Of a DNA stretch of 32,422 nt, positions 9,208-32,422 are shown one piece after another (the stretch's first letter is position 1; each line of letters starts with the position of its first letter). Under the pieces are notes generated by a model. It worked only from the letters and a program-made list of their open reading frames with translations, did not search any database and was not told where the DNA came from. A program made the position numbers and the translations under genes. The stretch is from a virus, in IMG/VR virus record IMGVR_UViG_3300012012_000643, positions 1 through 32,422 of that record; one strand, 5' to 3'.

Positions 9208-10113
9208 ATGGCCGCTGACACCTACGCCTCCCTCTCTGACCTGCGGGTTGCCGCCTACCTCAACGCTGAGCTGTTCACCCTCCTCCACGAGAAGGGCGAC
9301 CTGCGCGGCACGATGGTCGAGGTCCCCTTCAACCCGTCGCTCGGTTCGGCCGCCGCCAAGCTCGGCCTCTACCAGCCGCAGGACGCCTTCACCGCCCCCG
9401 GTGAGGACACCGCCGCCTCGGTGACCAACATCACCGATTCCAGCGCAACCCTCACGGTCGCGAAGTACAGCCTGCAGCGGGAGCTTACCGACCTCGCCCA
9501 AATCACCGGGGGTCCTGACCTCGACAAGCTCGCTGCGGACATGGCCGCATCGGCGTCGTACTGCCTCTCCGGGCTGCTCACCGCCGGCTTCACCAACCTC
9601 GCCACCAGCGTGGGCACCAGCGGCGTGAACCTCTCGGTGGATGACGTGTACTCGGCGCAGTACGCCCTCCAGCTCTCGCTGGTGGACGGCCCGTTCTACA
9701 TGGTGCTCCACCCGCAGCAGTGGAACGACTTTCAGGCGTCCCTCCGTGGCGAAGTCGGTGCCATGCAGTTCGTGCCCGCCACCGCCGAGGCGCTCGCCAT
9801 CAAGGGCTCCTCCTTCAAGGGGATGTGGAACGGCATCGAAATCTACACGCACAACAGCGTGGCGGCTTCGGGCGGCAACCGCATCGGCGCGATGTACGGC
9901 CGTGGCGCCTACGCCTTCACGGAGGCGCCGCTCGACAAGGTGACCCCCTTCATGGGCATGAGCAAGGCCCCCGCCGGCAGCAAGATGGTGGTTGAAATCG
10001 TGCGCGGCTCGGTCGGCGCCACCAAGGGCAAGACCTTCGCGGTCGGCCACTACTACCCGGCCGTTGCTGAGGTCGAGGACCTCCGTGGCGTCAAGATTGT
10101 GACCGACGAATAG
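9208..10113 (+). CDS. Major capsid protein, HK97 fold, 301 aa
   Basis: Shell-forming protein of the head. Position after the scaffold, the dedicated promoter and terminator, and a length of about 300 residues fit. The sequence shows the HK97-like pattern of an extended N-terminal arm, an E-loop region with TAPGEDTAASVTNITDS, a long spine helix region (DLDKLAADMAASASYC) and a C-terminal P/A-domain. The last includes FYMVLHPQQWNDFQ, EIYTHNSV and RIGAMYGRGAYAF, phrases typical of phage capsid proteins. GGAG lies seven bases before the ATG at 9208. Confidence 0.9.
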   Translation: MAADTYASLSDLRVAAYLNAELFTLLHEKGDLRGTMVEVPFNPSLGSAAAKLGLYQPQDAFTAPGEDTAASVTNITDSSATLTVAKYSLQRELTDLAQITGGPDLDKLAADMAASASYCLSGLLTAGFTNLATSVGTSGVNLSVDDVYSAQYALQLSLVDGPFYMVLHPQQWNDFQASLRGEVGAMQFVPATAEALAIKGSSFKGMWNGIEIYTHNSVAASGGNRIGAMYGRGAYAFTEAPLDKVTPFMGMSKAPAGSKMVVEIVRGSVGATKGKTFAVGHYYPAVAEVEDLRGVKIVTDE

Positions 10114-18429: not shown

Positions 18430-21400
18430 ATGTCCGACGTATCCGACACGACCCTGCGGGGGCTTCTCATCCCCGACCCCCGGCTGACCTACGCGGATGC
18501 GTACTCCAGCTCCTCGGTCGTCACGCAGCAGGGGCCTATCGCGGGCGTCCCCGTGGCCGTCAACGAGTCGGAGATGGTGCTGGAGTCGGGCGGCACTCAG
18601 GCCGCCGGCACCGTGGTGCATCTCCGCGTGCGCTCGGGCGGCCACCCCCGCCCCGACGGCGCCTCCTTCGCGTGGAGGTACTCCACCGACGCCTCCACCG
18701 ACAACCGGGGGTGGGACCCCCCCACCAGCATCACGGGCTTCGCCGCCCTCGACTACACCACCACTGCGAACCAGTGGAGCGAGCAGTTCGTCATGCGCCG
18801 GGCCGACGACGGGCTGGTGGCTGTGTGCCTGAAGTCCCGCCGCTACATCCGCGCATGGACTCGCCCTGCGACCTCGACCGCATGGACGGAACGTGTGGTG
18901 TACGACACGGGGGCCACCGTCACCAACGCGGCGAGCCCCTGCACCCTGCAACTGCCCGGCGGGCGCATCCTGCTGTTCCACTGGGTCGAGGTCACGGCCA
19001 CGCAGAATCAGGTGCGGATGCACTACAGTGACGACGACGGCGTGACGTGGACCACCGGCCAGCAGACCTGCCTGCTCACCCCCCTCACCACGAGCACCTA
19101 CACCCCCGGCCGGCTTCGCTGCGGCTACCTCAACGGGGAGGTCTTGCTGGTGGCCAGCGTGCTCGACACGTCGGGCGCGCAGAGTCGGGACCGGCTGGTG
19201 CAGTACGCCAGTGACGACCTCGGCACCACCTTCTCTCAGGTCAGCATCACCGCTGCGTACACTGCGGCGGCTGACTTCAACAGCCGGGCCTACGCTGAGG
19301 TCACCGTGGTGGGCGGGCGCTTCCTCGTCACCTACATCAAGACCCGCTCCTCTGGCACCGGCAACCGGGTGCCCTTCCGCAAGTTCTTGGGGCAGGCGTT
19401 CGACTCGCTCGCGAGTGCCCCGGAAGATATCGCCGTGCAGACCGGCAACACGATGGAGTGGGGCACCATCAGCGGCACCAACTACTTCACGGGCGGGGAG
19501 CTTGCGACGTGGCTGGACGATGATGGCGTGCTCTGGATGGCCGGTGACGACTTCTCCGACAACCACCCCTTCTACTGCCAGCGCAGCACGGACGGGGGGC
19601 AGACGTGGGCGATGGTCGGCAGCGGGTCCGCAGCGGGGTTTGGCTCTGCGTGGTGGAACGGTCGCGATGCGGCCACGCACCCCACCAACATCACCGGCTG
19701 CTCTCACCAAGGCCGTGCCGTAGTCCTGCACAACTTCGCAGCTAACCCCGGCACCGCAGACGCCTCGCTGTGCGCAGTCTACCTCGGTGGCTACACCACG
19801 GTCACGCTGCCCAACCTCGCCGGGGAGGCGGTGTCTGTGAAGTCCCGCGCCGCGTGGGAGCGCACTTGGCTGCCCTATGACGAGCCTGAGAACGTGGGCG
19901 GGGTGTGGAACCGGACTCTCGGTGGCGCCCCCACCATCGCCCTCTCTGGCGGGGAGCTGACCTACAGTGGCGGGGCGGGCGACTCGGTGGCCTACTACAC
20001 CGCAGCGGCCCCCTCTGGCACCATCGCGGAGGGGGTGATGGTGCTCATCGACGGGTACTGCACCACCACGTCCGCCACCGGGGGCGCCATGGTCAACGCG
20101 CAGGTCGGGGATGGGGCGGATGGCTACTCGGTGCGCGTTGCCTTCAGCAACCAGAACATCGTGGTGCGCGACCTGCAGGCGGCTGCGGACCTCGTGACCG
20201 TCACCGACTCCGCTGCGGTCACTGCGGCATCCACCGGCATCCAGATTCTCCTCCAAGTCTACAACCCGGCCGGCGGCGGCGCCGGCAACACCGGCCGATA
20301 CCGGGCGTGGTGGCGGTCTGCGGTGCCCGGCACCGACAGCGACCGCAAGTGGGTGGAGATTGGGTCCTCCACCACGCTGCAGACGGGCGCCATCGCCAGC
20401 TACGTCGCGTGGGGCGCCTTGAACGGCGTGACCACGGGGGCACGTTTCCGGGTGCAATGCTTCAGCAACAACAGCTATGCGGGCGCCCCTCTGTACGCCT
20501 TCTCCAACCCCGCAGACCTGCTCGGCCGCACCTTCTCCAACACGCTGGCCTACGTCGATGACGGGCTGCGGGTGCGCATGGTGGCGGGGCCTGCCTTCCG
20601 GGGCGATGAGGCCACCATCACTGCGGACTACAACTACCCCATCCGCAACATCTTCTCGGAGGTCAGCCCGTCCCCGGCGCAGGGGTGGCGGTCGGTGGAC
20701 ACGTCCAACGACGAGTTCATCCGGCTGGACTACGACTCCGTGCTGGCCCAGAACTCGGAGATGCTGGGGAACAGCATCGGCATCTACCTCGGCAACATCA
20801 ACTTCGAGTATTGCGAGCTGCAGGCCGCCACGGCCGGCGGCATCTTCAACACCATCGCCACGCTGTCCGCCAAGACGGGTCAACAGGGCATGGGGTTCAC
20901 CCGCAACGGCGACGAGCTGACGGTGAGCGTGGCGCATCCGGGCACCAACTCGATCCACTGGTACACCTACAACACCCTGCGCAACAGCTACGTCAAGATG
21001 ACCAGCGGCGGCGACCCTGCGGTGACCCGCATCCGCAAGATTCTGCACAACAGCGAGGGGGCGTGGCGGGCCACGGGCACCAAGACCGCACGCCTGCTGC
21101 TGGAGGGGGTATTGAGCGGCGACCCCACGGGGGACACCGCAACGAGCACCTGCGAGTTCTGGTCCAAGGACCTCATGTTCGTCATCAACGACGTGGCGAA
21201 GTACGCAGCGTTCCGCATCCGCATCCCCTCGCAGAGCACCTATGAGGGCGACTTCCGCATCGGCACGCTGCTCATGGGGCACATGGCTTGGTTCGGACAG
21301 AAGTACAGTCGGGGGCGCATCCTCGGCACCGACCCCAACACGCAGGTCACGACTTCACGCAGCGGGGCTCGGCGGGCCGTCAACGACGGCGGCGCCCGTC

Positions 21401-21768
21401 GGTCGGTGCAGTTCGGCTGGGTCGAGGGCATCGACACGTCATCCATCGCCACCACTCCGACGGAGCCCCAGCCCAACACGGTTTCGGCGTCCACGGGCGG
21501 GGCCGCAGAGGCCGCCCCCGCAGACACCCCGTACAAGGTGGCGGGCCTCGCAGAAGCCCTGCGGGGGGCCTTCACGCCCGTGGTGTACGTCGCCAAGTAC
21601 GCACGCCCCGCAGCGGCCTCGACCGACACCACGATGGTCAACCGCAACACCTTCCTGCACGCCCGGCTCGTCACCCCCGTGCAGCTTGAAAGCATCCTCG
21701 GCACGGAGTGGGCGAGCCCCGGCGAGGTATTCTCGGTGGGCACGGTCACTCTGGAGGAGGAGCTGTGA
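18430..21768 (+). CDS. Large tail tip protein with sialidase-type (BNR/Asp-box) repeats, 1112 aa
   Basis: The largest gene in the window, placed directly after the tape measure, so part of the tail tip. Three Asp boxes (SxDxGxTW) are visible: SDDDGVTW at 200, SDDLGTTF at 261 and STDGGQTW at 386. They lie in a beta-rich stretch (about 50-480) consistent with a sialidase-like beta-propeller. Residues about 490-690 and 700-950 look like further beta-sandwich (lectin-like) modules. The C-terminus (about 990-1112) returns to a more usual tail protein style with YKVAGLAEALRGAFTPV. It probably binds or trims a surface glycan. No complete sialidase arginine triad could be assigned by eye. Its end overlaps the next gene (GTGA). 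Confidence 0.75.
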   Translation: MSDVSDTTLRGLLIPDPRLTYADAYSSSSVVTQQGPIAGVPVAVNESEMVLESGGTQAAGTVVHLRVRSGGHPRPDGASFAWRYSTDASTDNRGWDPPTSITGFAALDYTTTANQWSEQFVMRRADDGLVAVCLKSRRYIRAWTRPATSTAWTERVVYDTGATVTNAASPCTLQLPGGRILLFHWVEVTATQNQVRMHYSDDDGVTWTTGQQTCLLTPLTTSTYTPGRLRCGYLNGEVLLVASVLDTSGAQSRDRLVQYASDDLGTTFSQVSITAAYTAAADFNSRAYAEVTVVGGRFLVTYIKTRSSGTGNRVPFRKFLGQAFDSLASAPEDIAVQTGNTMEWGTISGTNYFTGGELATWLDDDGVLWMAGDDFSDNHPFYCQRSTDGGQTWAMVGSGSAAGFGSAWWNGRDAATHPTNITGCSHQGRAVVLHNFAANPGTADASLCAVYLGGYTTVTLPNLAGEAVSVKSRAAWERTWLPYDEPENVGGVWNRTLGGAPTIALSGGELTYSGGAGDSVAYYTAAAPSGTIAEGVMVLIDGYCTTTSATGGAMVNAQVGDGADGYSVRVAFSNQNIVVRDLQAAADLVTVTDSAAVTAASTGIQILLQVYNPAGGGAGNTGRYRAWWRSAVPGTDSDRKWVEIGSSTTLQTGAIASYVAWGALNGVTTGARFRVQCFSNNSYAGAPLYAFSNPADLLGRTFSNTLAYVDDGLRVRMVAGPAFRGDEATITADYNYPIRNIFSEVSPSPAQGWRSVDTSNDEFIRLDYDSVLAQNSEMLGNSIGIYLGNINFEYCELQAATAGGIFNTIATLSAKTGQQGMGFTRNGDELTVSVAHPGTNSIHWYTYNTLRNSYVKMTSGGDPAVTRIRKILHNSEGAWRATGTKTARLLLEGVLSGDPTGDTATSTCEFWSKDLMFVINDVAKYAAFRIRIPSQSTYEGDFRIGTLLMGHMAWFGQKYSRGRILGTDPNTQVTTSRSGARRAVNDGGARRSVQFGWVEGIDTSSIATTPTEPQPNTVSASTGGAAEAAPADTPYKVAGLAEALRGAFTPVVYVAKYARPAAASTDTTMVNRNTFLHARLVTPVQLESILGTEWASPGEVFSVGTVTLEEEL

Positions 21769-23792
21769 AGCGTTGGAACCGCAGTAGGTTGCAGGGGCGC
21801 CGAGTCCTCTGGCTGCTCGACATCGAGTATGCGGGGCAGACCCACCGGCTGTCCACCGTGGACCTCGACGTGGCCAGCGCCGACGGTGACCTGCACTACA
21901 TGGGAGGCATCGCTGAGGTCGTGATGCAGACCGCGCTCGACCTGCTCGGGGAGTCGGGCGAGCTGCTGTCGGTGCCGCTGGAAGTCCTCATGCCCGTGGA
22001 CGTGGCCGCCCTGACCACTGCGGGCCACGACCTGTCTCTGGCCACCGGCACCCTCTCCCGCTGGGTAGAGGGCGACGTGTGGGAGGATCGGCTGGTGGTG
22101 CTGACCGGGCGGGTGTCGGACCCTGAGTACGGGCGGCAGGGCCTGCCCGTGCGCTTCAGTCTGGAGGACCGCATCTTCGATGATGCCGCGTTGGTGCCAG
22201 AGGCCACCGCTGTGGTATCGGGCGTGACCACCGACACCAACTGGCTGTCGGATGATGACCTTGAAGTGCCGTACCCCATCATCATCGGGCATCCGGGGCA
22301 GGTCCGCAGCGGCACCCGTGTCACGGGCTCCATCGCGCCGTGGCAGATGAAGGCGACCTATCACCACCGGGTCGTGCTGGCCGGGCACCGGGTCCAATGC
22401 AGCTACATCCGCGCCAACAACGACGGCACCACCACCACTCAGGTGTTCAAGGTCGAGCACACCATCGACCGGCTCGGCCGCGAGATTGCCGTGTTGCTGG
22501 AGGCCAACGGGTCGGGCACCGGGTCCACCCCCGTGACCACCACCACCTTCTACTACGGGCTCGACAGCACGGGCGTCCCGGCCACCTTCCAGCCCGCTGT
22601 GAGCGAGGACGCGCCCATCTTCATCGTGTGGGAGGACCCCGACGACATCTCCTTGGGGGGCCTCACCGGGGAGGGCGGCGACCTCCTGCGCGGGGCGGGG
22701 GACGTGATTGAGTACCTGCTGCGGCAGTCCTCCCGCCGGGTTGACTTTGGGCGCATCCGCGCCATCAAGGACCGCCTCAACGGCTTCAAGCTCGACTTCG
22801 CCATCGGGGAGCGCACGAGCCCGTGGGACTTCGTGCGCGACAACATCCTGCCGCTGCTCCCGGTGACGGTGGCGGCCGGGCCGGCTGGTCTGTACCTCGT
22901 GGTGTTCGACTACTCGGCCACCGCTGAGGACGCAGCGGGGAGCATTGACGAGGACACCAACCCCGGCGTGCAGCTCGGAGACTACATCCGGTCGGACGGG
23001 TCGCACGTCGCCAACCAGTTCACCCTGTCCTACGCTCACTCGGCGCGGGTCTCCAGCTTCACCGAGAAGCTCGTCATGGGCGCTGTCGGCAGCGAGGGGC
23101 ACGCCACGGCCGACCTCATCTGCTGCGGGGTCGAGATCGTCCGCCTCATCGCCACCGTGCCCGGCGGGGCGGGGGGCGGCTACACCATCGCGGTCTCCTC
23201 CACGGGCGCCCTGTCGGTCGCAGAGAACACCGGGGCCAAGACGGTGACCCTCACCTTCAACAGCGGCGTCACGACCTCGCAGGCCATGGTGGACGCCATC
23301 AACGCCGGCCTCACCGCTGTGCGCGCCGTGCTGATTTCTGGCATCGGCACCCGCGTGTTCGATGTCGGTGCCGTGGGCACCACGGCCACTGCGTCTGAGC
23401 AGACCGTCACGATGGCGAGCACGGGCACGGCCATCGACCTGCCAAGCTACTTCTGCGCTGCTTCTCAGGGCAAGCATCGGGGCGTCCTGAACCCTACGGG
23501 GGTCATCGAGAAGTTGATGGAGTCCCGGTGTATCTACGACCCTGCGACGGCGGCCATGGTGCTCTCGTGGCAGGCTCGGGCTCTGTCCCTGCCGTGGCGC
23601 AGGGTGGACGCCCTGCTCCCGGAGGCCGACTACGCATGGCTGGAGAAGGGCAACGTGGTCACGGTCACGGCCTCCCGGCTGGCTCTGTCGAGCAAGGTGG
23701 CCCACGTCGAGGCCATCGAGACTGCGGATGACGGCTTCCTTGCGGTTACGCTGCTCATGCTGCAAGACCCCCCGATGGACAACAGGAGCTAA
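21765..23792 (+). CDS. Tail tip/baseplate hub candidate, 675 aa
   Basis: GTG 21765 overlaps the previous stop as GTGA and has GGAGGAG upstream. The first 200 residues resemble a distal-tail/hub beta domain (RRVLWLLDIEYAGQTHRLS, DRLVVLTGRVSDPEYG). The middle holds a helical segment (GDVIEYLLRQSSRRVDFGRI, FDFVRD-like WDFVRDNILPLLPV) typical of hub proteins. A Gly/Ser/Thr-rich insert (about 465-570) precedes the end. Position between the tip protein and the fibre fits a hub role. No enzymatic motif was identified. Confidence 0.55.
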   Translation: MKRWNRSRLQGRRVLWLLDIEYAGQTHRLSTVDLDVASADGDLHYMGGIAEVVMQTALDLLGESGELLSVPLEVLMPVDVAALTTAGHDLSLATGTLSRWVEGDVWEDRLVVLTGRVSDPEYGRQGLPVRFSLEDRIFDDAALVPEATAVVSGVTTDTNWLSDDDLEVPYPIIIGHPGQVRSGTRVTGSIAPWQMKATYHHRVVLAGHRVQCSYIRANNDGTTTTQVFKVEHTIDRLGREIAVLLEANGSGTGSTPVTTTTFYYGLDSTGVPATFQPAVSEDAPIFIVWEDPDDISLGGLTGEGGDLLRGAGDVIEYLLRQSSRRVDFGRIRAIKDRLNGFKLDFAIGERTSPWDFVRDNILPLLPVTVAAGPAGLYLVVFDYSATAEDAAGSIDEDTNPGVQLGDYIRSDGSHVANQFTLSYAHSARVSSFTEKLVMGAVGSEGHATADLICCGVEIVRLIATVPGGAGGGYTIAVSSTGALSVAENTGAKTVTLTFNSGVTTSQAMVDAINAGLTAVRAVLISGIGTRVFDVGAVGTTATASEQTVTMASTGTAIDLPSYFCAASQGKHRGVLNPTGVIEKLMESRCIYDPATAAMVLSWQARALSLPWRRVDALLPEADYAWLEKGNVVTVTASRLALSSKVAHVEAIETADDGFLAVTLLMLQDPPMDNRS

Positions 23793-23796
23793 GCGC

Positions 23797-24825
23797 ATGG
23801 GCAAGTCCAAGGCCATCCCCTTCGCGCACGCAGCCACCCACTTGCCGGGAGGCAGCGACCCTCTGGCGAGCGCGGGCGATGTCGTCGGCCCGTCCTCGTC
23901 GGTCGCGAGCGAGGTGGCGCTATTCGACGGCACCACCGGCAAGCTGATCAAACGGGCGACCGGGACCGGCCTCGCCAAGCTCACCAGCGGCGTGCTCTCG
24001 ACGGCGACGGCGGGCACGGACTACTACGCGCCCGGCTCGACTGACGTAGCCGTAGCGGACGGCGGCACGGGGAGCAGCACGGCGGCGGGGGCGCGCACCA
24101 ACCTCGGGCTCGGCTCGGCGGCGGTGCTCGATGCGGCTACGACGCGAGCCGCGAGCGGCATCGTCAAGCTCGGCACGAACCTGCTGTATGGCATTGACGA
24201 TCTCGTGACGCACCTTGGCCACCACATCGCGTACACGCGAGCGGCGGCGGGGGCCTACGACAGCAGCGGGTGGGGCACCATCACGGTTGCAGGGGCGGGG
24301 GGCTCGCAGAGTAACAACCGATGGCTGCGCTCCACGTCGGCGACCGTGTCCGGGTGGTTTCAGGGAGCACGGCTTGCGGACACAGCCGAGGGCTTCGTCG
24401 GCGTAGTCTGCTTCAAGTTCCCCACGACGATCGGGGCGCGGCGCCTCTATATCGGGCTGGGCAGCACATCCCCCGTGGACAGCGACACGCCATCGGGGCA
24501 CTTCGTTGGGTTGCGCTACTCGTCCACGGTACCCGATGCGGGGTTCGTGCCGGCCTCGCGCGACGGCGCGACTACCACGATCGGCAGCGCGTTTGCGGCC
24601 CCGGTCGCGGATGTGCCGTACCTTGCGATCTTCACGGGCGCGGCGGGCGGCTCAGTCGTGGTCGAGTTGATCCGACTCGACACCGGAGCGCGCGAGACGG
24701 CTACGATCTCAGCCACCCTCCCGGCCGGCGGCACCAAGATCGACATAGTGTGCTATGGCTGGAATCAGGCCGTCTCCAAGGCGACGGAGTTCTCGTATAT
24801 GTATCGGTTCCTTCCCATGCTGTAG
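23797..24825 (+). CDS. Tail fibre / receptor-binding protein, 342 aa, atypical composition
   Basis: ATG 23797 has AGGAG eight bases upstream. The N-terminal part carries features of phage fibre shafts: AATHLPGGSDPL, KLIKRATGTGLAKL, and the repeat-like GGTGSSTAAGARTNLGLGS. The rest (about 130-342) is a beta-rich head domain ending in YMYRFLPML. The base and codon usage differ from neighbours: many GCG, TCG and CGA codons, and eight GATC sites, a tetramer almost missing elsewhere. This suggests recent acquisition of much of the gene, with the first 40 residues possibly native as the attachment part. It probably determines host range. Confidence 0.8.
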   Translation: MGKSKAIPFAHAATHLPGGSDPLASAGDVVGPSSSVASEVALFDGTTGKLIKRATGTGLAKLTSGVLSTATAGTDYYAPGSTDVAVADGGTGSSTAAGARTNLGLGSAAVLDAATTRAASGIVKLGTNLLYGIDDLVTHLGHHIAYTRAAAGAYDSSGWGTITVAGAGGSQSNNRWLRSTSATVSGWFQGARLADTAEGFVGVVCFKFPTTIGARRLYIGLGSTSPVDSDTPSGHFVGLRYSSTVPDAGFVPASRDGATTTIGSAFAAPVADVPYLAIFTGAAGGSVVVELIRLDTGARETATISATLPAGGTKIDIVCYGWNQAVSKATEFSYMYRFLPML

Positions 24826-24842
24826 AGGGCCAGCGGCGTAGC

Positions 24843-24862
24843 GGGCGAGGCGGGACTCGCCC
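24843..24862 (+). terminator. Terminator-like hairpin after the tail fibre
   Basis: GGGCGAG (24843-24849) pairs with CTCGCCC (24856-24862) around a 6-base loop, 17 bases beyond the fibre stop. No T-run follows. It separates tail genes from the lysis group. Confidence 0.45.
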
Positions 24863-24876
24863 TGACGTTCGTGCTG

Positions 24877-24885
24877 TGATATGCT
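24877..24885 (+). promoter_or_regulatory. Extended -10 promoter candidate for the lysis group
   Basis: TGATATGCT (24877-24885) matches the extended -10 form TGnTATnnT. No good -35 lies at the right distance, as is allowed for extended -10 promoters. It is 42 bases before the next start and right after the hairpin, so the lysis genes could be transcribed on their own. Confidence 0.4.
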
Positions 24886-24927
24886 GGGCGCAAGCGTCCG
24901 CCGCTGTTGTGTCAGAGGAGCTTGGCC

Positions 24928-25374
24928 TTGCCCACCTACCCCAATGCCCGCGACGACATCCGAGAGCTGGCCCGCATCTGCAGAGAGCAGGCGGATGCTC
25001 TGGTGCGGATTGCGGTTCAGATTGAAGCGGGGGCGGGTGTCTCCCGTGACGTAGCCTCCCGGCTGGTCACCATCGAGGAGCGGCTCAAGGAAGTAGATGT
25101 CTACTTCACGGCACAGAACACCGCACAGGCCAACGCCCACGCTCGGTCGCAGCGGGCGGCGGGGGACTTCCGGGCCACGCTGCTCTCTTGGGTGGCGTGG
25201 ATGACCCCCGGCCGGCTGCTGCTGCTGTTCGGATTGCTGCAGCCCCTGCTGCTGACCCTTGGCGTGCAGACGGGGGTGGCCAGTTGGGCCGTCCGCCTGC
25301 TGGCCCCTGCCGACACGGCGCCCCCCTCTGCGGGGGAGCCCCCCGCTGTGTACTCAGAGGAATCCGACCCATGA
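24928..25374 (+). CDS. Membrane protein with coiled coil, holin candidate, 148 aa
   Basis: TTG 24928 is chosen because AGGAG lies seven bases before it. The N-terminal 70 residues are an amphipathic helix region (RDDIRELARICREQADALV, VTIEERLKEVDVYF). A strongly hydrophobic stretch (about 97-125, GRLLLLFGLLQPLLLTLGV) follows, then an acidic Pro-rich tail. The layout recalls XhlA/gp-type small lysis membrane proteins. Neighbouring genes and the late position support a holin or antiholin role, but the family is not recognised. The stop overlaps the next start (ATGA). Confidence 0.55.
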   Translation: MPTYPNARDDIRELARICREQADALVRIAVQIEAGAGVSRDVASRLVTIEERLKEVDVYFTAQNTAQANAHARSQRAAGDFRATLLSWVAWMTPGRLLLLFGLLQPLLLTLGVQTGVASWAVRLLAPADTAPPSAGEPPAVYSEESDP

Positions 25375-25571
25375 CCCAACCCCCGGCCACCGACGCCCCC
25401 TGCCTCCTGACGCTCTGCGGGGGCATCCTCGATGCGGCTTGCCGGTTGGAGGCTCGGCTCTGCGCAGAGCCCGCTGTGGAGGCTCCCCGGAGGCCGACCG
25501 GGTTGCGCTCCGGCGCCGTCTCCGTCCCCACCAAGCGAGTCGCCCGTGCTGCAGCTGCATCTGTGTCGTGA
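25371..25571 (+). CDS. Small hypothetical protein, 66 aa
   Basis: ATG 25371 overlaps the previous stop by four bases (ATGA), which supports translation. The N-terminal half has four cysteines (C11, C16, C24, C31 approximately) in a helical context. The C-terminal half is basic with Arg/Pro/Ala. The last 26 bases overlap the next gene in another frame. No lipobox or clear membrane segment is seen, so a spanin role is not supported. Function unknown. Confidence 0.5.
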   Translation: MTQPPATDAPCLLTLCGGILDAACRLEARLCAEPAVEAPRRPTGLRSGAVSVPTKRVARAAAASVS

Positions 25572-25998
25572 CATCTTCGACCCCCGCTTCACGCTGGGGA
25601 CGCTTCACGTCAACGGGCTGCCGTTCGGCTTCACCGCTGAGGACACCGACCGGCGGCTGGGGGAGCCCGGCGGGGGCGAGAAGATTCGGGGCATCACCGC
25701 CATCCCGCTGGGGACCTACGCAGTGGTCTCCACTTGGTCGCCCAAGTACGGGCGCATGATGCCGCTGGTCTGCGGGGTGCCGGGCTACGCAGGGGTCCGC
25801 ATCCACAGCGGCAACGGGCCGGCGGACACGGAGGGCTGCATCCTGCCCGGCCTGCTGCGCGACCCCATCCGGGGCCGGGTCGGCAAGTCCCGCGCAGCGG
25901 TGGCGTGGCTGTACGAGGCCATCGAGAAGGCAGAGGCCGCAGCGGGGGGCGACAGCCCTGCGGTGCAGCTCACCATCACCCGCGCCTTGCCGGAGTAG
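25546..25998 (+). CDS. DUF5675 family protein, possible cell-wall active lysis protein, 150 aa
   Basis: GTG 25546 (VLQLHLCRDIF) matches where DUF5675 proteins begin. Family marks are FTLGTLHVNGLPFGFTAED, AIPLGTYAVVSTWSPKYGR, VPGYAGVRIHSGN and DTEGCILPG. The domain is common in phage lysis regions and its biochemical role is not established. The HSGN...DTEGC pair resembles the His and SHGC/SNGC catalytic motif of L,D-transpeptidases, so cell-wall chemistry is a reasonable guess. No other lysin is visible in the window. The ribosome site is weak (AAGCGAG upstream), so expression may depend on the overlapping upstream gene. A short tail follows the conserved domain. Confidence 0.75.
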   Translation: MLQLHLCRDIFDPRFTLGTLHVNGLPFGFTAEDTDRRLGEPGGGEKIRGITAIPLGTYAVVSTWSPKYGRMMPLVCGVPGYAGVRIHSGNGPADTEGCILPGLLRDPIRGRVGKSRAAVAWLYEAIEKAEAAAGGDSPAVQLTITRALPE

Positions 25999-26124
25999 CC
26001 GGAGGATGCTGCGGCGGGGGCGTCTCCACCCCTGCGTGACTCACGGGCAGGCACCAGTGGTCAGCCCACCCTCATGGTTGATGAGGATGAGAGCGCGCAC
26101 CCATACGGGCGCCGCAGCAAAGTC
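25999..26124. other. Convergent intergenic region
   Basis: Plus-strand late genes and minus-strand replication genes end towards each other here. The only structure noticed is a short hairpin CCTCAT/ATGAGG (26070-26086, loop 5), too weak to call a terminator with confidence. No gene is credible in this gap. Confidence 0.4.
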
Positions 26125-26397
26125 TCAGCGGAGGTCGGCGGGGTCGGCCTCCTCCGGCACGTTTCCGAATCCGGGGATGGGGTCATCGAAGTCGGTGATG
26201 TCCACGTCCAGCATCTTGGCGAGCCCGCTGCGGACAGCAGCGAGGAGCACCGCATGACGGCTGACCCGCAGCCCGGTTTCGCGGGACAGCTTGTCTGCAG
26301 CGGCGTCGGCCGCCGCTTTCAGCAGCGAGGCCGCCGGGGTGTTCAGGGTAATCATCCGGCTGCCGCCGGTCAGGGGGGTGAGCTTCGCGTGTTTCAC
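26125..26397 (-). CDS. Ribbon-helix-helix-like small protein, 90 aa
   Basis: GTG 26397 overlaps the stop of the RuvC-like gene (GTGA) and is preferred over the internal ATG at 26355, which lacks a ribosome site. Residues about 13-20 (SRMITLNT) could be the DNA-contacting strand. They are followed by one helix (ASLLKAAADAAADKLSRETG) and a second (VSRHAVLLAAVRSGLAKML), the plan of ribbon-helix-helix DNA-binding proteins. The C-terminus is acidic. It may be a regulator of its own operon or a replication accessory. It is the last gene of the minus-strand replication group. Confidence 0.55.
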   Translation of the reverse strand: MKHAKLTPLTGGSRMITLNTPAASLLKAAADAAADKLSRETGLRVSRHAVLLAAVRSGLAKMLDVDITDFDDPIPGFGNVPEEADPADLR

Positions 26398-26888
26398 TTG
26401 ATGCCTCGCTTGAAGTACCACAAGCATAGCCCGATAGCATCCCAACCGTCAAGGGTAGTACCGGGACGCACCGCCTGCTTCTCTCGCTGCGTCAGCTTGT
26501 CCTTGCTGCGGTTGGCGACGACCTGCTTGGGCGCCTGCCCCTTCCATGCGGAGGGCTCGACCCCGACCACCGTGGCGCCCAACCCCGCTGCGATGGCAGC
26601 GAGGCCGCCGGCCACGCCGCTGACCTGCAGGATGTCGTTGGGGTCTGCGTGGCTGCGGGGGTACACCACTTGGTCCTCGATGATGACGGTGATGGCCCCG
26701 GCGGGGTGCGGGGCGTCGGCCAGCTGGTCGAGCAGGGGTGCCCACACCCGGAAGGCTACCCGCCCCCACGCAGCGGGGCCTCGCCCGCCTCCGGGGAAGC
26801 TGGTGGTGTACGCATCCACCAGCACGCCGTCGTGGAACACGGCTACCCCTACGTCGTGCAGGGCGGGGTCGAAGCCGATGGTAATCAT
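26394..26888 (-). CDS. RuvC-like Holliday junction resolvase, 164 aa
   Basis: RNase H-fold nuclease that would cut four-way junctions and debranch replicating DNA before packaging. The acidic residues are visible: D7 in IGFDPALHDVGVAVF, E71 in VIIEDQVVYPRS, and D147/D150 in LDGWDAIGLCLWYFKR. The length fits RuvC family members. The start overlaps the polymerase stop (ATGA) and the stop overlaps the next gene (GTGA), so the three are translated together. The basic segment PSAWKGQAPKQVVANRSKDK fits DNA contact. Confidence 0.8.
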   Translation of the reverse strand: MITIGFDPALHDVGVAVFHDGVLVDAYTTSFPGGGRGPAAWGRVAFRVWAPLLDQLADAPHPAGAITVIIEDQVVYPRSHADPNDILQVSGVAGGLAAIAAGLGATVVGVEPSAWKGQAPKQVVANRSKDKLTQREKQAVRPGTTLDGWDAIGLCLWYFKRGIK

Positions 26889-28837
26889 GCCCGTGCCCCT
26901 CGTGCCGCCAGCCGCTGCTTCAGGCTCTGCTTGGCCGCCGGGGCCGCCGGGGCCGCCGGGGCCGCCGGGGTGGGCGTCCAGACCTGCAGCACCCCCTCCG
27001 CAGAGACGATGCGCTTGGCGGACTTCGACCAGCGGTCCATCGCCTCGACCTCGACCGACACCGGCACGTCGGGCATGAAGTGCGCCATCGCCTCGACCAT
27101 CACCACGCTGAGGCGCTCTGCGGCGGCGTGGACCTGAGCCAGCGGGGCCGACAGCAGGAACTCGTCATGCACGAAGGCGTGCGGCAGGCACCCATACAGA
27201 GCCGTGCCGGGCATCAGGCACTCCCGCACGATGCGGCCCATCGCCCGCTTGGCCCCATCAGCGGCCAAGCCTTGGAAGTAGGTGTTGCAGCCGCTGGTGT
27301 ACCGGCACCCGCCGCGCACTCGGCCGCTGCGGAGCTGCTCGATGCTGAAGGACTCAGCGGCGCCGGCCATCCGGGCGACGTGCTGGAAGTAGTCCTGCAT
27401 CTCGGGATACCAGCCCAGCCAGCGGTGCTTGAGGTCGGCCGCCTCCTCACGGGCGATGATGACGTTGTAGGTCGTGCGGGCGTACTCCACGAAGGCGTCG
27501 GGGCCAAGGCCCCCCGGCAGGCCGAAGTTTGCGGCCTTGCTGAGCTGCCGCATGTCCTTGGCGACTACATCCCCCGCCTTGTACCGGGCGACCGCCTCCT
27601 CGTAGCTGATGCCCATGAGGTCCGCTGCGGTGGCCAGATGCGGGTCGCGGCCGGCTCGGATGGTGTCGGCCAGCTTGGAGTACCCAAAGAGGTCGAGGCA
27701 GACCTGCGCAAGCGCCACCAGCTCCACGAAGGAGTAGTCGGCATCCACGAAGGCGTGACCGGCCGGGGGTCGGAACATCTCGCGGATGCCGCCCCTCCGG
27801 GGCATCTGCTGGATGTTGGGGTTGCGCCCGCTCGTGCGCCCCGTCTCCTTCAGCACGTCGTAGCCGGGGTTGACCACCCCCGCCGAGAGCGAGGGCAGGA
27901 ACGCCGACAGCAGCTTCTCTGCGGAGGCCACTTCCGACGCCGCCACCAGCAGGGCGTCTCCGCTGCTCGCCAGCGTGTCCGCTGCGGTGGAGGTCGCCCC
28001 GCTGTCGGTGATGGGCGGGGTGGTCCCCTTCGCTGCGTAGGCGGCCTCGATGCGGGCGCGGAGCTTCTTCATGTCCTTGGAGCCGTTCTCCCGCATGATG
28101 CCGGCTGCCCGGTACTGCGCATGGACAGTCTCAACCTGAGCCTGCAGCTCGACCTGCAGCTGGGCGGCGTCCTCCGTGGCAATCTCGATGCCGGTCATGG
28201 TGAACAGCTGCAGGGCGACGTGGGCATCCGTCTGCTCGCCCTCGTTCACGAACGTGTCGGCAGAGAGCTTGGGGGCCTGTCCGACCCGGTTCTGCGCGTG
28301 GAACACCGCGAGGGTCGCCGCAGCGTCCCGGAGGCTGTACTCGACCGCTGCGGTGGGGTACTGGTCGATGGGCAGGCCGTCCAGCTCTGCGTAGCGGGTG
28401 CGCCAAGTGTCCTCGCCCTTCTCCATGGTCACGCCGAGATAGCGGGAGGCCAGAGCGGCGAGGCTGAAGGAGGGCTGCCGCATGTTGTCGGCGGCGTCGT
28501 GGCTCAGCCGGCCCTCAGCGAGCAGGATGAGCTTGTCGCGGGTCTGCACGCAGCGGATGCGGCCGGCATCGAGGGCCGCAAACATCGAAGCGGTGAAGCG
28601 GTCGGGGTCGGGCGCCCACGTCAGGGCCACCCCAAGGTCGAAGCCGACGTTGGCGCCGACCAGAACCACGCGGGGGTTCTCCAGCCACGCCAGCAGCTTC
28701 GCTGCGGACTCGGCCGCCGTGACCAGCCATTCGTCGTCGCCCTCAGCGAAGGACATGCAGACGGGCTTCGGGGCGGGGACGCCGGGACCGAACAGGTGTG
28801 TCTCAAAGTCGAAGGCGATGTAGCGGGTGTCGGTCAT
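26885..28837 (-). CDS. polA: Family A DNA polymerase with 3'-5' exonuclease domain, 650 aa
   Basis: Replicative polymerase. The exonuclease domain has AFDFETHLF (D10, E12), GANVGFDLG (N63, D67) and YSLRD (Y167, D171), so proofreading looks intact. The polymerase domain has TGRTSGRNPNIQQMP and motif A DYSFVEL (D367, E372). Motif B is RQLSKAANFGLPGG (K434, F438, G442) and motif C is VHDE (H557, D558, E559). There is no 5'-3' nuclease domain. F438 aligns with E. coli F762, and G442 replaces Y766. The C-terminus ends with an AAP-type repeat encoded by four 9-bp units, then a basic tail. A strong hairpin lies in its leader. Confidence 0.95.
   Translation of the reverse strand: MTDTRYIAFDFETHLFGPGVPAPKPVCMSFAEGDDEWLVTAAESAAKLLAWLENPRVVLVGANVGFDLGVALTWAPDPDRFTASMFAALDAGRIRCVQTRDKLILLAEGRLSHDAADNMRQPSFSLAALASRYLGVTMEKGEDTWRTRYAELDGLPIDQYPTAAVEYSLRDAAATLAVFHAQNRVGQAPKLSADTFVNEGEQTDAHVALQLFTMTGIEIATEDAAQLQVELQAQVETVHAQYRAAGIMRENGSKDMKKLRARIEAAYAAKGTTPPITDSGATSTAADTLASSGDALLVAASEVASAEKLLSAFLPSLSAGVVNPGYDVLKETGRTSGRNPNIQQMPRRGGIREMFRPPAGHAFVDADYSFVELVALAQVCLDLFGYSKLADTIRAGRDPHLATAADLMGISYEEAVARYKAGDVVAKDMRQLSKAANFGLPGGLGPDAFVEYARTTYNVIIAREEAADLKHRWLGWYPEMQDYFQHVARMAGAAESFSIEQLRSGRVRGGCRYTSGCNTYFQGLAADGAKRAMGRIVRECLMPGTALYGCLPHAFVHDEFLLSAPLAQVHAAAERLSVVMVEAMAHFMPDVPVSVEVEAMDRWSKSAKRIVSAEGVLQVWTPTPAAPAAPAAPAAKQSLKQRLAARGARA
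26933..26968 (-). repeat. Four tandem 9-bp GGCCGCCGG units in the polymerase gene
   Basis: Perfect copies at 26933, 26942, 26951 and 26960 encode the Ala-Pro-rich linker before the basic C-terminal tail of the polymerase. Copy number changes would keep frame. Confidence 0.9.
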
Positions 28838-28854
28838 GGCGGCTCCAGAAGTGG

Positions 28855-28893
28855 CGAGCCCCCCGCTGTGTACGGGACACGGCGGGGGGCTCG
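28855..28893 (-). terminator. Strong hairpin between the SSB-like gene and the polymerase
   Basis: Arms 28855-28871 and 28877-28893 form a 17-bp stem with one G-T type mismatch and a 5-base loop. On the minus strand it follows the SSB-like stop by 16 bases and ends 18 bases before the polymerase ATG. No T-run follows. It may terminate or attenuate read-through into the polymerase group. Confidence 0.6.
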
Positions 28894-28908
28894 GTTGGGG
28901 TGGGGGGA

Positions 28909-29340
28909 CTACGACAGGGCGTAGAAGTTGTGCTTGGAGAACGCGGCGCCGGCCTTGGTCTTGATGTCCTCGACACGGATGCGGAGGGTCGAGCCGGCCA
29001 GCTCCGTGCCGTCGCCTTCGATGGCTTCCATCACCACCGATTCGTCCACGTCGGACTCGGCGGCGCTGGTGGCGGCCACGATGAACGCCTTGACATCAGC
29101 GAGGGCCATGTCGGGGTAGCGGCCGGTCAGCTTGCACATCCAAGTGGCGGGGCTGCCCGGCTGGACACCGGCGTTGCTGGACTCCTGCACGTCGAGGTCA
29201 GCGACGAAGAACTCGTCGGTGCCGACCTTGGACTTGACGTGGCGGCAGGAGACGATGGCCACCGTGTAGGTGCCGGCGGTGAGGAAGATGCCCTTGCCAC
29301 GGGCGGCGGCGGTGTTTCCAATGCGAGCGAAGATGGACAT
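28909..29340 (-). CDS. SSB-like replication protein candidate, 143 aa
   Basis: ATG 29340 has AAGGAA upstream. The protein opens MSIFARIGNTAAARGKGIFL, then beta strands (GTYTVAIVSCRHVKSKVG, EFFVADLDVQES) and an acidic helical end. This resembles phage OB-fold-type ssDNA-binding proteins (DUF2815 or DUF669-like) that sit beside PolA and a Cas4/DUF2800-like nuclease. The call rests on gene neighbourhood and fold impression, not on a sure signature. A lone C-terminal aromatic (HNFYALS) replaces the acidic tip of bacterial SSBs. Confidence 0.45.
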   Translation of the reverse strand: MSIFARIGNTAAARGKGIFLTAGTYTVAIVSCRHVKSKVGTDEFFVADLDVQESSNAGVQPGSPATWMCKLTGRYPDMALADVKAFIVAATSAAESDVDESVVMEAIEGDGTELAGSTLRIRVEDIKTKAGAAFSKHNFYALS

Positions 29341-29401
29341 GATGTTGGTTTCCTTGTTGCGGTGTTCAGAGTCACCGGGGGCGGGATGCCTCCGGTCTGG
29401 T

Positions 29402-29430
29402 CCGGTGCGGGCGCAGATGCGCCCTACCGG
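29402..29430 (-). terminator. Hairpin at the end of the 33-aa frame
   Basis: GGGCGC (29409-29414) pairs with GCGCCC (29419-29424) around AGAT, and CCGGT/ACCGG flanks extend it with a small bulge. It overlaps the stop of the small membrane frame and precedes the SSB-like gene. Confidence 0.4.
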
Positions 29431-29525
29431 GTCAGGTTGCGGGTGCGGGGCCACAGCAGGACCAGCCGCAGAGATTCGATGGTGAGCAGGAGGCCGCAGA
29501 GGGCCAGCAGCAGGGCGGTGTCCAC
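29424..29525 (-). CDS. Tiny membrane protein, 33 aa
   Basis: GTG 29525 shares one base with the stop of the upstream gene (TAGTG). The product is a single hydrophobic helix, DTALLLALCGLLLTIESL, followed by a basic tail RTRNLTR. The coupling and the clean membrane-helix composition support a real gene, but a frame of this size can arise by chance. No family recognised. Confidence 0.4.
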   Translation of the reverse strand: MDTALLLALCGLLLTIESLRLVLLWPRTRNLTR

Positions 29526-29959
29526 TATGCGACCGAGACACTGGAGACGAGGCTCTCGTAGTCGCTGACCTTGACCCGGCCCGCGAGGAGGGCGGCCAGC
29601 GCATCCTTCCAGCCCTCGACCGTCTTGGGGGAGTATGCGCGGGCGCCCCGCACGGGGTCGGCGTCGTACCACGCAATCTTCGCTTCGCAGTGGGCGACCT
29701 GCTCAGCGACGAGGGCGGCCACGATGTCGGTGTTGGGGCCGTGGCCGGCGCACACCTTGGCGTACTGGTTGGCGTAGATGCGGTGCCGGACGTTCGTGTT
29801 GTCGTCTGCGTCCCGGAAGGCGCCCTGCTTGGCGCCGAAGCTGATGACCGTGCAGCGGCGGAAGAACACCGTGACACCGTTGGCGTCGGGGAGGTTCCAG
29901 AGCCCGTGCATGGTGACCGGGGAGGCGGGGCGGGGGAGCTTGGTGGCGGGGGTGGTCAT
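29525..29959 (-). CDS. Hypothetical protein, 144 aa
   Basis: ATG 29959 (MTTPATKLPRP) is chosen because its leader AACGAGAACACC nearly equals that of the 1429-1773 gene. The first half is beta-like (MHGLWNLPDANGVTVFFRR). The second is helical with Cys and His (CAGHGPNTDIVAALVAEQVAHCEAK split across this region). No family recognised. A candidate promoter overlapping the end of the helicase gene lies just upstream. Confidence 0.65.
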   Translation of the reverse strand: MTTPATKLPRPASPVTMHGLWNLPDANGVTVFFRRCTVISFGAKQGAFRDADDNTNVRHRIYANQYAKVCAGHGPNTDIVAALVAEQVAHCEAKIAWYDADPVRGARAYSPKTVEGWKDALAALLAGRVKVSDYESLVSSVSVA

Positions 29960-30012
29960 GGTGTTCTCGTTCGGGGGTTCGCGGGAGGCTTCATCGCCGC
30001 CACACTCAGAAG

Positions 30013-30038
30013 ATACTACGGTACTACTCCAGCGTCTA
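30013..30038 (-). promoter_or_regulatory. Candidate promoter/operator B, near copy of 1830-1859
   Basis: On the minus strand TAGACG (30038-30033) precedes TAGTACCGTAGTAT (30026-30013), matching site A except for a 4-bp shorter interval. Upstream AATCTTC is also shared, and GAAGATTTC is directly repeated at 30048 and 30059. The site overlaps the last codons and stop of the helicase gene. Confidence 0.45.
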
Positions 30039-31692
30039 TGGCGACGTGAAGATTTCCTGAAGATTTCTCCGGGGCGCGGGCGGACCACCCACTGCACAGC
30101 AACAGCTTCTGGCGTTGGCCCGTGCTTGTTTCGACGTAGCGCGCATCCTCCATCGCGGCCTCGATGCCACGCAGCGGCAGGGCGGTCCAGTGGATGACCT
30201 CGATGTAGACCTCATCCGCCTCCTGCCCCTCTCGGTGCGTGCGGCCGATGAGCTGCTCTATGGCGGTGCCGCTGCTCATGGGCTCGACCAGCAGGTTGGT
30301 GCTCCAGCCCTGCAGGTTTCGGCCGACGCCGTGGCTGTGCCGGCTGAGCACCAGCGTGCGGGGCTTGGTCGGCACGGGCTGGCCCGGCCGCAGCACGTCC
30401 AGCCCCATCGACTCCAGCACGTCCATGACGGCGACCGACTCCACCCACACCAGCACAGCGCCGTGGTCATGCTCCAACGCCTCGACCCGGCGAAGCGTGG
30501 CGTCCATCACTGCGTAGCTCACCCACCGGGCGACCTGCGGGGGGCGGCAGCGGTCCTCGATGGCCTCCCACGCAGCGAGGGCGGCAGCGGCCCCGGTGTT
30601 CGGCCGGGACCGCACCCACGTCTCCGCCTGCAGGGGGCTGTCCACGAAGGGCAGGCGCCGGGCGAGGATGCTGCGGACCTCAGCGGACCACGCCGCACGG
30701 GCGGCCAGCCACTCTTGGTCAGGGCCGCCGGCCCCCCAATCCCACACATAGTAGAACCCCGACTGCAGCTGGCGTTCGGCCGCTGCGAAGTCGGAGGCAC
30801 GCAGGATTTCCGTGCCGTCCGGCAGCACCCACGCCCTCCGCAGGTCGCGCAGGGCATCGCGGAGCGCGGGCGGGGGGTCAGGGAGGCGGTGGGGCTCCAG
30901 CCGCAGCGAGCACTCCGCTGCGGACGTGTCGATGGTGCAGATGACGCCGGGGGCGCTGCGGAGGCGCATCAGGAACGCCTCCCGCGCGTTGGCGGCCTTG
31001 GGGAAGGCGGCGAGCAGCGGGGCCACGGCGCCGGTCTGGTGGCTGGTGGGCTCCCCGTGGGCGTCCATGACGGCGGCCCACGCTTCCAGCTCCAACCACT
31101 CGCGGGGCAGGGGGCTGCGCTCCCGCAGGGCCAGCTCGGACAGGTGGTCGAAGTCGGCCACGCTGCGGCTGGTGATGGTGCCGCTGAGCGCCACGAACAG
31201 CGTGGTGGGGTTCTCCTGAAACCACCGCACCAGCCGGCGGGTGCGGGCGGCTGTGCGGTGTCGAAGGTGGTGGCACTCATCCGCGATGATGAGGTCAGGG
31301 TTGTGCGCCTGCAGGGCCGCCTGCCCCGTGGCGGTGCTCAGGTCGTTGTACGACATCACCTTCAGGTTGGGATGCACTCGGAACACGGCGGACCACCGCT
31401 GCAGCTCCGTGCGGGTCTGCGGCACGAGCTGAGCAGGGACAAGCAGCAGGGGCCGCTCGACCCCCTCGATGACGCTGGGGGCCAGCAGGCTGATGAGCAG
31501 CTTGCCCTGCCCCACGCCGATGACGCCAAGCAGGCCCCGCTCCCGCTGTGCTTCACCAAGGGCAGCAAGCTGACCGGGGCGGAGCACAGCGGGGGAGGGG
31601 CCGGGCAGACGCAGGGTGTGCGCGTTGGTCGGAGGCGCACGCATCCCCTCGATGCGAGGCAGGGCGAGGATGCGGGCGACCTCCGGCAGCAT
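30016..31692 (-). CDS. SF2 helicase, SNF2-like, 558 aa
   Basis: ATP-dependent DNA translocase/helicase of the replication set. Motif I is GVIGVGQGKLL (K64), motif II DECH at 138-141, motif III ALSGTITS (S170), motif VI QLIGRTHREGQ near residue 485, the SNF2 style of HRxGQ. The usual Thr/Ser after the P-loop lysine is Leu (L65), which is unusual. The segment PLLLVPAQLVPQTR is typical of motif Ia in phage helicases. ATG 31692 lies two bases after the upstream stop. The C-terminus ends within the promoter-like site B. Confidence 0.85.
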   Translation of the reverse strand: MLPEVARILALPRIEGMRAPPTNAHTLRLPGPSPAVLRPGQLAALGEAQRERGLLGVIGVGQGKLLISLLAPSVIEGVERPLLLVPAQLVPQTRTELQRWSAVFRVHPNLKVMSYNDLSTATGQAALQAHNPDLIIADECHHLRHRTAARTRRLVRWFQENPTTLFVALSGTITSRSVADFDHLSELALRERSPLPREWLELEAWAAVMDAHGEPTSHQTGAVAPLLAAFPKAANAREAFLMRLRSAPGVICTIDTSAAECSLRLEPHRLPDPPPALRDALRDLRRAWVLPDGTEILRASDFAAAERQLQSGFYYVWDWGAGGPDQEWLAARAAWSAEVRSILARRLPFVDSPLQAETWVRSRPNTGAAAALAAWEAIEDRCRPPQVARWVSYAVMDATLRRVEALEHDHGAVLVWVESVAVMDVLESMGLDVLRPGQPVPTKPRTLVLSRHSHGVGRNLQGWSTNLLVEPMSSGTAIEQLIGRTHREGQEADEVYIEVIHWTALPLRGIEAAMEDARYVETSTGQRQKLLLCSGWSARAPEKSSGNLHVAIDAGVVP

Positions 31693-31694
31693 GG

Positions 31695-32422
31695 TCAGCG
31701 CGTGCCCCGCAGGACGCCCACGGCCCCGCAGACGAGCGGCAGGGAGGCTTCCTTCCAGATGTTGCAGGCGCTGTCCACCAGCACGAGCGTGCCGTCAGCG
31801 GGGAGCGCCTTGCCAATCATGTCGGCCACGGTGCGCTCTCCCGCACGGAAGTCCCGCATGAAGGCGGGGCCGCCGACCGCCTTCTCAAAGCTGGCGACGA
31901 TGGGCGCCAAGTACGCCTCCAGCGTCTGCAGCTTCCAGCCCGGCGGGGCCTGCACCACGCCGATGTCAACCAGCAGCATGTAGCCTTGCGTGGGGGTGGC
32001 GGCCGGGGCCTGCACCACCGGGCCGGGCTCGATGCGGCGGGGGGTCTTGGTGGTGGGGGCGGCCTCGACCGGGGCGGCCTTGGGGGCCTCGACCTCGACC
32101 GGGGCGGCGACCTCGACCGGGGCGGCCTTGGTGGCCTCGACCTCGACCTCGACCGGGGCGGCCTTGGTGGCCTTGGTGGCCTTGGTGGCGAAGTGGACGC
32201 CCGTGGTGTCCACCGTGGCCCCGGCAATCAGCTCCACGGCGCGCTCGACATGCGACCACGCCACGCGCTCCATGCCGCAGACGGTCCCGACCAGCAGCCG
32301 GGCCTCCTTGGCCGGCAGGGTGGCGCGCCCCGCTGCCGCCTTCTCGATGGCCGCCGCTGCGAGGGTGTAGTCCGCCTTTTTGGGCGGGCGGGGTGCCTGC
32401 GGGGTGGCGGTGGGGTCGGGGG
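31695..32422 (-). CDS. Ala/Val/Glu-rich protein, 5' end beyond window
   Basis: Open from the right edge to TGA at 31695-31697, 242 codons visible; an internal ATG exists at 32273 but the frame is open upstream with sensible sequence (KKADYTLAAAAIEK, ARLLVGTVCG), so the start is outside. A low-complexity middle repeats KAAPVEVE-like and TKATKA units. The C-terminal 100 residues form a folded domain (GYMLLVDIGVVQAPPGW, DGTLVLVDSACNIW). Not recognised. If the genome is circular, this is the downstream part of the Cas4-like reading frame. Confidence 0.7.
   Translation of the reverse strand, partial: PDPTATPQAPRPPKKADYTLAAAAIEKAAAGRATLPAKEARLLVGTVCGMERVAWSHVERAVELIAGATVDTTGVHFATKATKATKAAPVEVEVEATKAAPVEVAAPVEVEAPKAAPVEAAPTTKTPRRIEPGPVVQAPAATPTQGYMLLVDIGVVQAPPGWKLQTLEAYLAPIVASFEKAVGGPAFMRDFRAGERTVADMIGKALPADGTLVLVDSACNIWKEASLPLVCGAVGVLRGTR

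Follow-up and report, generated by a model that had tools for sequence, protein, structure and literature searches.

Exchange of tail-fibre and receptor-binding modules between distantly related phages has been described for Alteromonas phages A5 and V22 (PMC10579305), and phages, most strongly the non-temperate dsDNA phages, are known to avoid restriction sites (Rusinov et al. 2018, PMC6286503). Here we describe a viral contig of 32,422 bases (32.4 kb), analysed over its whole length and called the window below, in which both bear on a single gene. Its tail-fibre gene (23797-24825, + strand, 342 aa) is best explained, with a probability that we put at about 80%, as a chimaera whose foreign shaft and knob arrived late in a phage already purged of GATC. 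Swaps of phage host-recognition modules are usually very hard to date. Strong, codon-visible purging of one word provides an internal marker for this purpose, by which modules free of its scars can be recognized as late arrivals.

GATC is depleted across the window except in the tail-fibre gene

The window contains 19 GATC sites. Eight of these lie in the fibre gene, at 23946, 24199, 24429, 24579, 24627, 24669, 24705 and 24738, a span of 796 bp (23946-24741); a reading of the sequence alone had listed these eight positions within about 0.8 kb, and all are exact. Relative to a Markov expectation, the fibre gene holds 8 GATC against 6.9 expected, whereas the rest of the window holds 11 against 123.5, an approximately 11-fold depletion. 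The fibre gene is therefore normal in GATC density, not enriched for its own composition, and it is the remainder of the window that is depleted. This concentration is difficult to obtain by chance, both by binomial expectation (P = 6e-8 for at least 8 of 19 sites in the fibre gene) and by random placement, which never brought eight sites within 800 bp (0 of 20,000 placements). Synonymous-codon shuffles of the fibre gene gave 6.0 ± 1.7 sites against its actual 8; all other genes tested fell below their shuffled means.

The 11 remaining sites (1708, 1741, 2140, 10574, 11728, 13152, 16830, 17764, 20952, 22086 and 23135) all lie upstream of the fibre gene, where 94.8 are expected; downstream, where native DNA resumes (24826-32422), there are none against 26.0 expected. 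These flanks bear on the idea that metagenome assembly stitched the fibre of another phage into the contig at the conserved shaft described below. The 32,422-base record does come from a metagenome collection, and shaft blocks recur across phages. However, two false joins would be needed, since native-style DNA lies on both sides (11/94.8 and 0/26); the reading frame is also intact and the nearest known shaft is just 88% identical, and we regard such an artefact as highly improbable.

Three of the 11 resident sites fall within 432 bp, at 1708-2140, a clustering that is not significant (P = 0.08). A small gene near this trio (1432-1776, - strand) has a near-neutral codon preference (+0.003, in the measure described below) and might, though the case is weak, be another late arrival.

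Resident genes carry synonymous scars of GATC purging

The under-representation of GATC (11/123.5) goes beyond composition and is accompanied by synonymous replacement, as restriction-driven avoidance would require. The one-step neighbours of GATC are over-represented (GATT 48 seen against 22.3 expected, AATC 34 against 20.6). In native genes, ATT encodes 29 of the 37 Ile residues that follow a G-ending codon but 3 of the 270 others (p = 6e-30), and G-ending codons stand before Ile at a frequency of 12%, compared with 40% before other residues. The fibre gene is without these scars. All seven of its Ile codons after G are ATC, and G-ending codons precede Ile at 50%, within the 45-53% seen in comparison phages. 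The ratio of GATC to GATT plus AATC is 11:81 outside the fibre and 8:1 inside it (p = 3e-6). The depletion thus looks like selection working through synonymous sites.

The same codon context bears on whether the fibre could be an old resident whose GATC sites were retained by protein or RNA constraint. In its favour, tail fibres are unusual in amino-acid composition, and seven of the eight sites consist of a codon ending in G followed by Ile ATC. Yet a single synonymous substitution would suffice to remove any of the eight sites, native genes mostly use ATT for Ile after G, and synonymous shuffling by itself predicts six sites. Codon usage in the remainder of the fibre is foreign as well, and retention by constraint is very unlikely.

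The phage encodes a Prim-Pol/VapE protein, a family A DNA polymerase and a terminase. A Pfam scan, which covered its genes apart from some small ORFs, revealed no DNA methyltransferase of its own, and a search for the host with the terminase found no relative in a bacterial genome collection.

Other words are missing from the window as a whole. At least ten six-base palindromes are fully absent against 7-29 copies expected for each: CCCGGG (0/28.7), GTCGAC (0/25.9), CTCGAG (0/21.3), GACGTC, CCGCGG, GAGCTC, AGGCCT, ACCGGT, CACGTG, ATCGAT and AGCGCT. GCCGGC, CGGCCG, GGCGCC and CTGCAG are near expectation, and CTAG occurs once against 34.9 expected. So many absent palindromes suggest a host population with many restriction specificities.

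The fibre gene has foreign codon usage

GC content is unchanged at the fibre (0.687, compared with 0.684), and yet its codon usage makes it the top outlier among 20 genes (z = 9.6). The next deviation belongs to a capsid-like gene at 9208-10113 (z = 5.0), which has no GATC; that deviation is possibly an effect of expression rather than import.

As a foreign codon model we used L002 and L018 together, two unrelated phages with normal GATC and 68% GC. The donor-versus-native likelihood per codon is +0.088 for the fibre and between -0.095 and +0.003 for the 26 other genes, so that among 27 genes the fibre alone clearly fits foreign over own-genome codon usage. L002 and L018 carry shafts homologous to that of the fibre, but these contribute little to their codon tables, and the knob, absent from both phages, also scores as foreign. 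By part, the log-likelihood ratio is +12.1 for the shaft, +5.0 for the linker, +14.6 for the knob and -1.5 for the first 25 codons, and the maximal foreign segment is 23839-24813. By its z-score and its donor codon preference, the gene differs in composition from the rest of the genome, as expected of horizontally acquired DNA.

A codon break along 23-25 kb had been predicted from the sequence alone, and it is real. The proposed shift to GCG, TCG and CGA is borne out for GCG (0.67 in the fibre, 0.29 in the rest) and CGA (0.29, 0.04; 4 codons), whereas that for TCG is weak (0.33, 0.24); stronger shifts that had been overlooked are ACG (0.55, 0.31) and TAT (0.45, 0.07). The local style was said to persist until about 23860, which agrees with the start of the foreign codon segment at 23839 and of DNA homology at 23865, though 25 codons are too few for codon usage alone to identify this first stretch as native. 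On either side of the gene the style is native: the upstream tail-region gene (21771-23792, + strand) has native codon usage and 2 GATC against 11.2 expected, and native usage resumes from gene 24907-25374 onward.

The shaft is shared with otherwise unrelated phages

The fibre lies directly 3′ of large tail-region genes and 5′ of a DUF5675 gene; the two upstream genes are assigned to the tail by their position. Its protein matches four PHROG tail-fiber families (E 1.6e-5 to 1.4e-4), while Pfam gives no tail-fibre match. Also in the tail region, 18430-21768 encodes a 1112-aa protein with a BNR/Asp-box (sialidase-like repeat) match (Pfam BNR_2, E 1.7e-8).

The N-terminal part (MGKSKAIPFAHAATHLPGGSDPLA..., 23797-23864, + strand) has no DNA match to the shaft donors and is presumed to be the native attachment tip. 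It contains the motif AHAATHxPGGxDP, which a pattern search found in two viral contigs only, L028 and L029, in differing contexts. From 23865 the picture changes. The imported shaft/linker block (aa 24-111, 23865-24128, + strand) has 84-88% DNA identity by BLASTN to the fibre shafts of L002, L003/L018 and L019, and 73% to that of L016 over 23875-24113. The N terminus and the downstream part thus have different relatives, as had been anticipated. DNA matches between the window and all of these phages are confined to the shaft block, L002, L003 and L019 matching at 23865-24128 alone, so the relatives of the shaft are in phages unrelated elsewhere, a further mark of horizontal acquisition. GATC content is normal in the longer loci among them (seen/expected: L002 84/99.5, L018 75/85.9, L016 33/35.5). 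The GATC at 23946 has a counterpart at the aligned place in L002 and was therefore probably inherited along with the module.

In different phages, the shaft block is attached to different N termini. At the protein level, related shafts occur in contigs of 34% to 68% GC. Some contigs that encode them were binned with bacteria, Runella among these, and may represent phage or prophage. Downstream of the block lies a linker with a ARTNLGLGSAAVLDAATTRAASG-type repeat (24129-24228, + strand), similar to the second of the repeat units in the L019 fibre.

Codon usage, shaft DNA homology beginning at the predicted break and the missing purge scars provide three independent lines of support for the proposed import. 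The earlier wording that the module was swapped goes further than this: our searches gave no relative in which an older fibre occupies the locus, and the import may have been an addition or a replacement. No relative spanning the fibre locus turned up in the collections searched: the DNA at 22-25 kb of the window had no match in a GenBank phage collection, the fibre protein had a single weak match there, to a Limnohabitans phage over 15% of the query, and the two upstream tail-region proteins had no relative in viral-contig searches.

The knob has a predicted lectin-like fold

The C-terminal knob (24229-24822, + strand) has a single relative by sequence, with 35% identity over approximately 113-127 aa: a domain that is repeated within a 2473-aa fibre of L014. 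In this fibre (L014:4218-11639) the lectin-like knob domain occurs three times, in diverged copies separated by Gly-rich repeats.

A knob model built from four sequences, of low-to-moderate confidence (mean pLDDT 58, pTM 0.64), is a predicted beta-sandwich that matches 2a5z (Z 10.6, 144 residues, rmsd 3.2) as well as galectins and legume lectins (Z ~10, rmsd ~3-4 Å; VIA). It also matches uncharacterised proteins of uncultured tailed phages. The model thus resembles the galectin/ConA-like (legume) lectin fold, and differs from these lectins in sharing just ~6-14% sequence identity with them; the likeness is known here from a model with mean pLDDT 58. A single-sequence structure of the whole fibre (mean pLDDT 38) was set aside. 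The predicted fold naturally suggests that the knob is a putative binder of a surface-sugar receptor. The fold supports the suggested role in host recognition for the tip of the fibre, a role that stays inferred.

Resident GATC sites appear to turn over rapidly

L012, the one close relative that our searches gave, is 87% identical to the window across 7.4 kb and ends before the fibre locus. It is likewise depleted in GATC (5 against 37.2 expected). In the shared 7.4 kb, the window has two GATC sites and L012 five, and none of these seven positions is common to both, whereas other words with this letter composition are 65% shared. If that level of sharing is read as a Jaccard fraction of ~0.48, the probability that all seven sites would be unshared is ~0.01. 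At the position of every L012 site the window has GATT or AATC, and L012 has GGTC at both window sites. Resident GATC sites therefore seem to be short-lived, with rapid turnover judging from this pair of sequences, and against such turnover the eight intact sites of the fibre argue for late arrival. This supports the earlier view that the module has not yet been purged.

The main rival reading accepts the import but not its recency: selection against GATC would have relaxed, for example because the new fibre led the phage to a host without a GATC enzyme, leaving the depletion as a relic. A fibre change is the kind of event able to shift host, and our data carry no sign of present-day selection. 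Relaxation would, however, be expected to let GATC rebound, and the window has no more resident sites than L012 in their shared 7.4 kb (2 compared with 5, both small counts). We consider relaxed selection unlikely.

One observation counts against late import. For 17 six-base palindromes that are rare or absent elsewhere in the window, the fibre has 0 against 4.2-4.8 expected (P ~0.015). This suggests either a donor with partly the same avoidance, except that of GATC, or partial amelioration in which rarer sites were lost first.

The closest sampled shaft is 12% divergent and the knob relative 35% identical. The direct donor is thus unsampled, and with relatives this distant homology alone gives no recency. 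The idea that the missing purge dates the swap consequently holds as an ordering, in which the import is probably late relative to site turnover, and not as a calibrated date.

A probable late import into a GATC-purged lineage

The depletion, its scars, the compositional break, the common shaft block and the native flanks are established features of the window, and from them we infer that host restriction caused the depletion, that recombination took place through the shaft, that the knob binds a receptor and that the import was recent. The lineage would long have been under strong anti-GATC selection, most probably imposed by a Type II restriction enzyme of the host that cuts GATC. Its resident genes would have been purged mostly by synonymous changes, with ATT replacing ATC for Ile after G or G-ending codons avoided before Ile. 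A crossover close to where the shaft begins may then have replaced or added shaft and knob, from GATC-tolerant phages, joining the shaft block and lectin-like knob in frame, at about 23839-23865, to a short and probably native N-terminal attachment stretch; the downstream join would lie between the end of the fibre gene and native gene 24907-25374. Because its DNA is conserved between otherwise unrelated phages, the shaft block plausibly provided the homology for crossover. If the bulk of the purging preceded the module's arrival, there would have been little time for site removal, which would account for both its neutral GATC density and its foreign codon usage.

More tentatively, and in our view less likely than not, the shaft block (GDVVGPSSSVASEVALF...TDVAVADGGTGSSTAAGARTNLGLG) could be a universal joint at which recombination transfers receptor-binding knobs from one phage lineage to another, with the restriction-site scars of the recipient serving as a relative clock of swaps. 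The same test (the Ile codon after G, and GATC versus GATT/AATC) is applicable to large phage collections, where it could reveal recent imports and whether or not fibres dominate among them. In the literature searched, we found no precedent for combining site avoidance with the dating of imports, which is not proof of absence.

The type of event is known, both as fibre module exchange and as site avoidance; the value of this locus is a clear, testable internal marker. As in the exchange between A5 and V22 (PMC10579305), a host-recognition module has homologues in otherwise unrelated phages. Here, in contrast, a single gene of ~1 kb is involved, the direct donor is unsampled and a site-avoidance signal orders the import relative to selection. 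With a GATC observed/expected ratio of ~0.09 outside the fibre, by a simple Markov formula, the window resembles the near-elimination class of Rusinov et al. 2018 (compositional bias <0.1, PMC6286503). Unlike the cases described there, one gene is exempt and the scars in codon context are visible.
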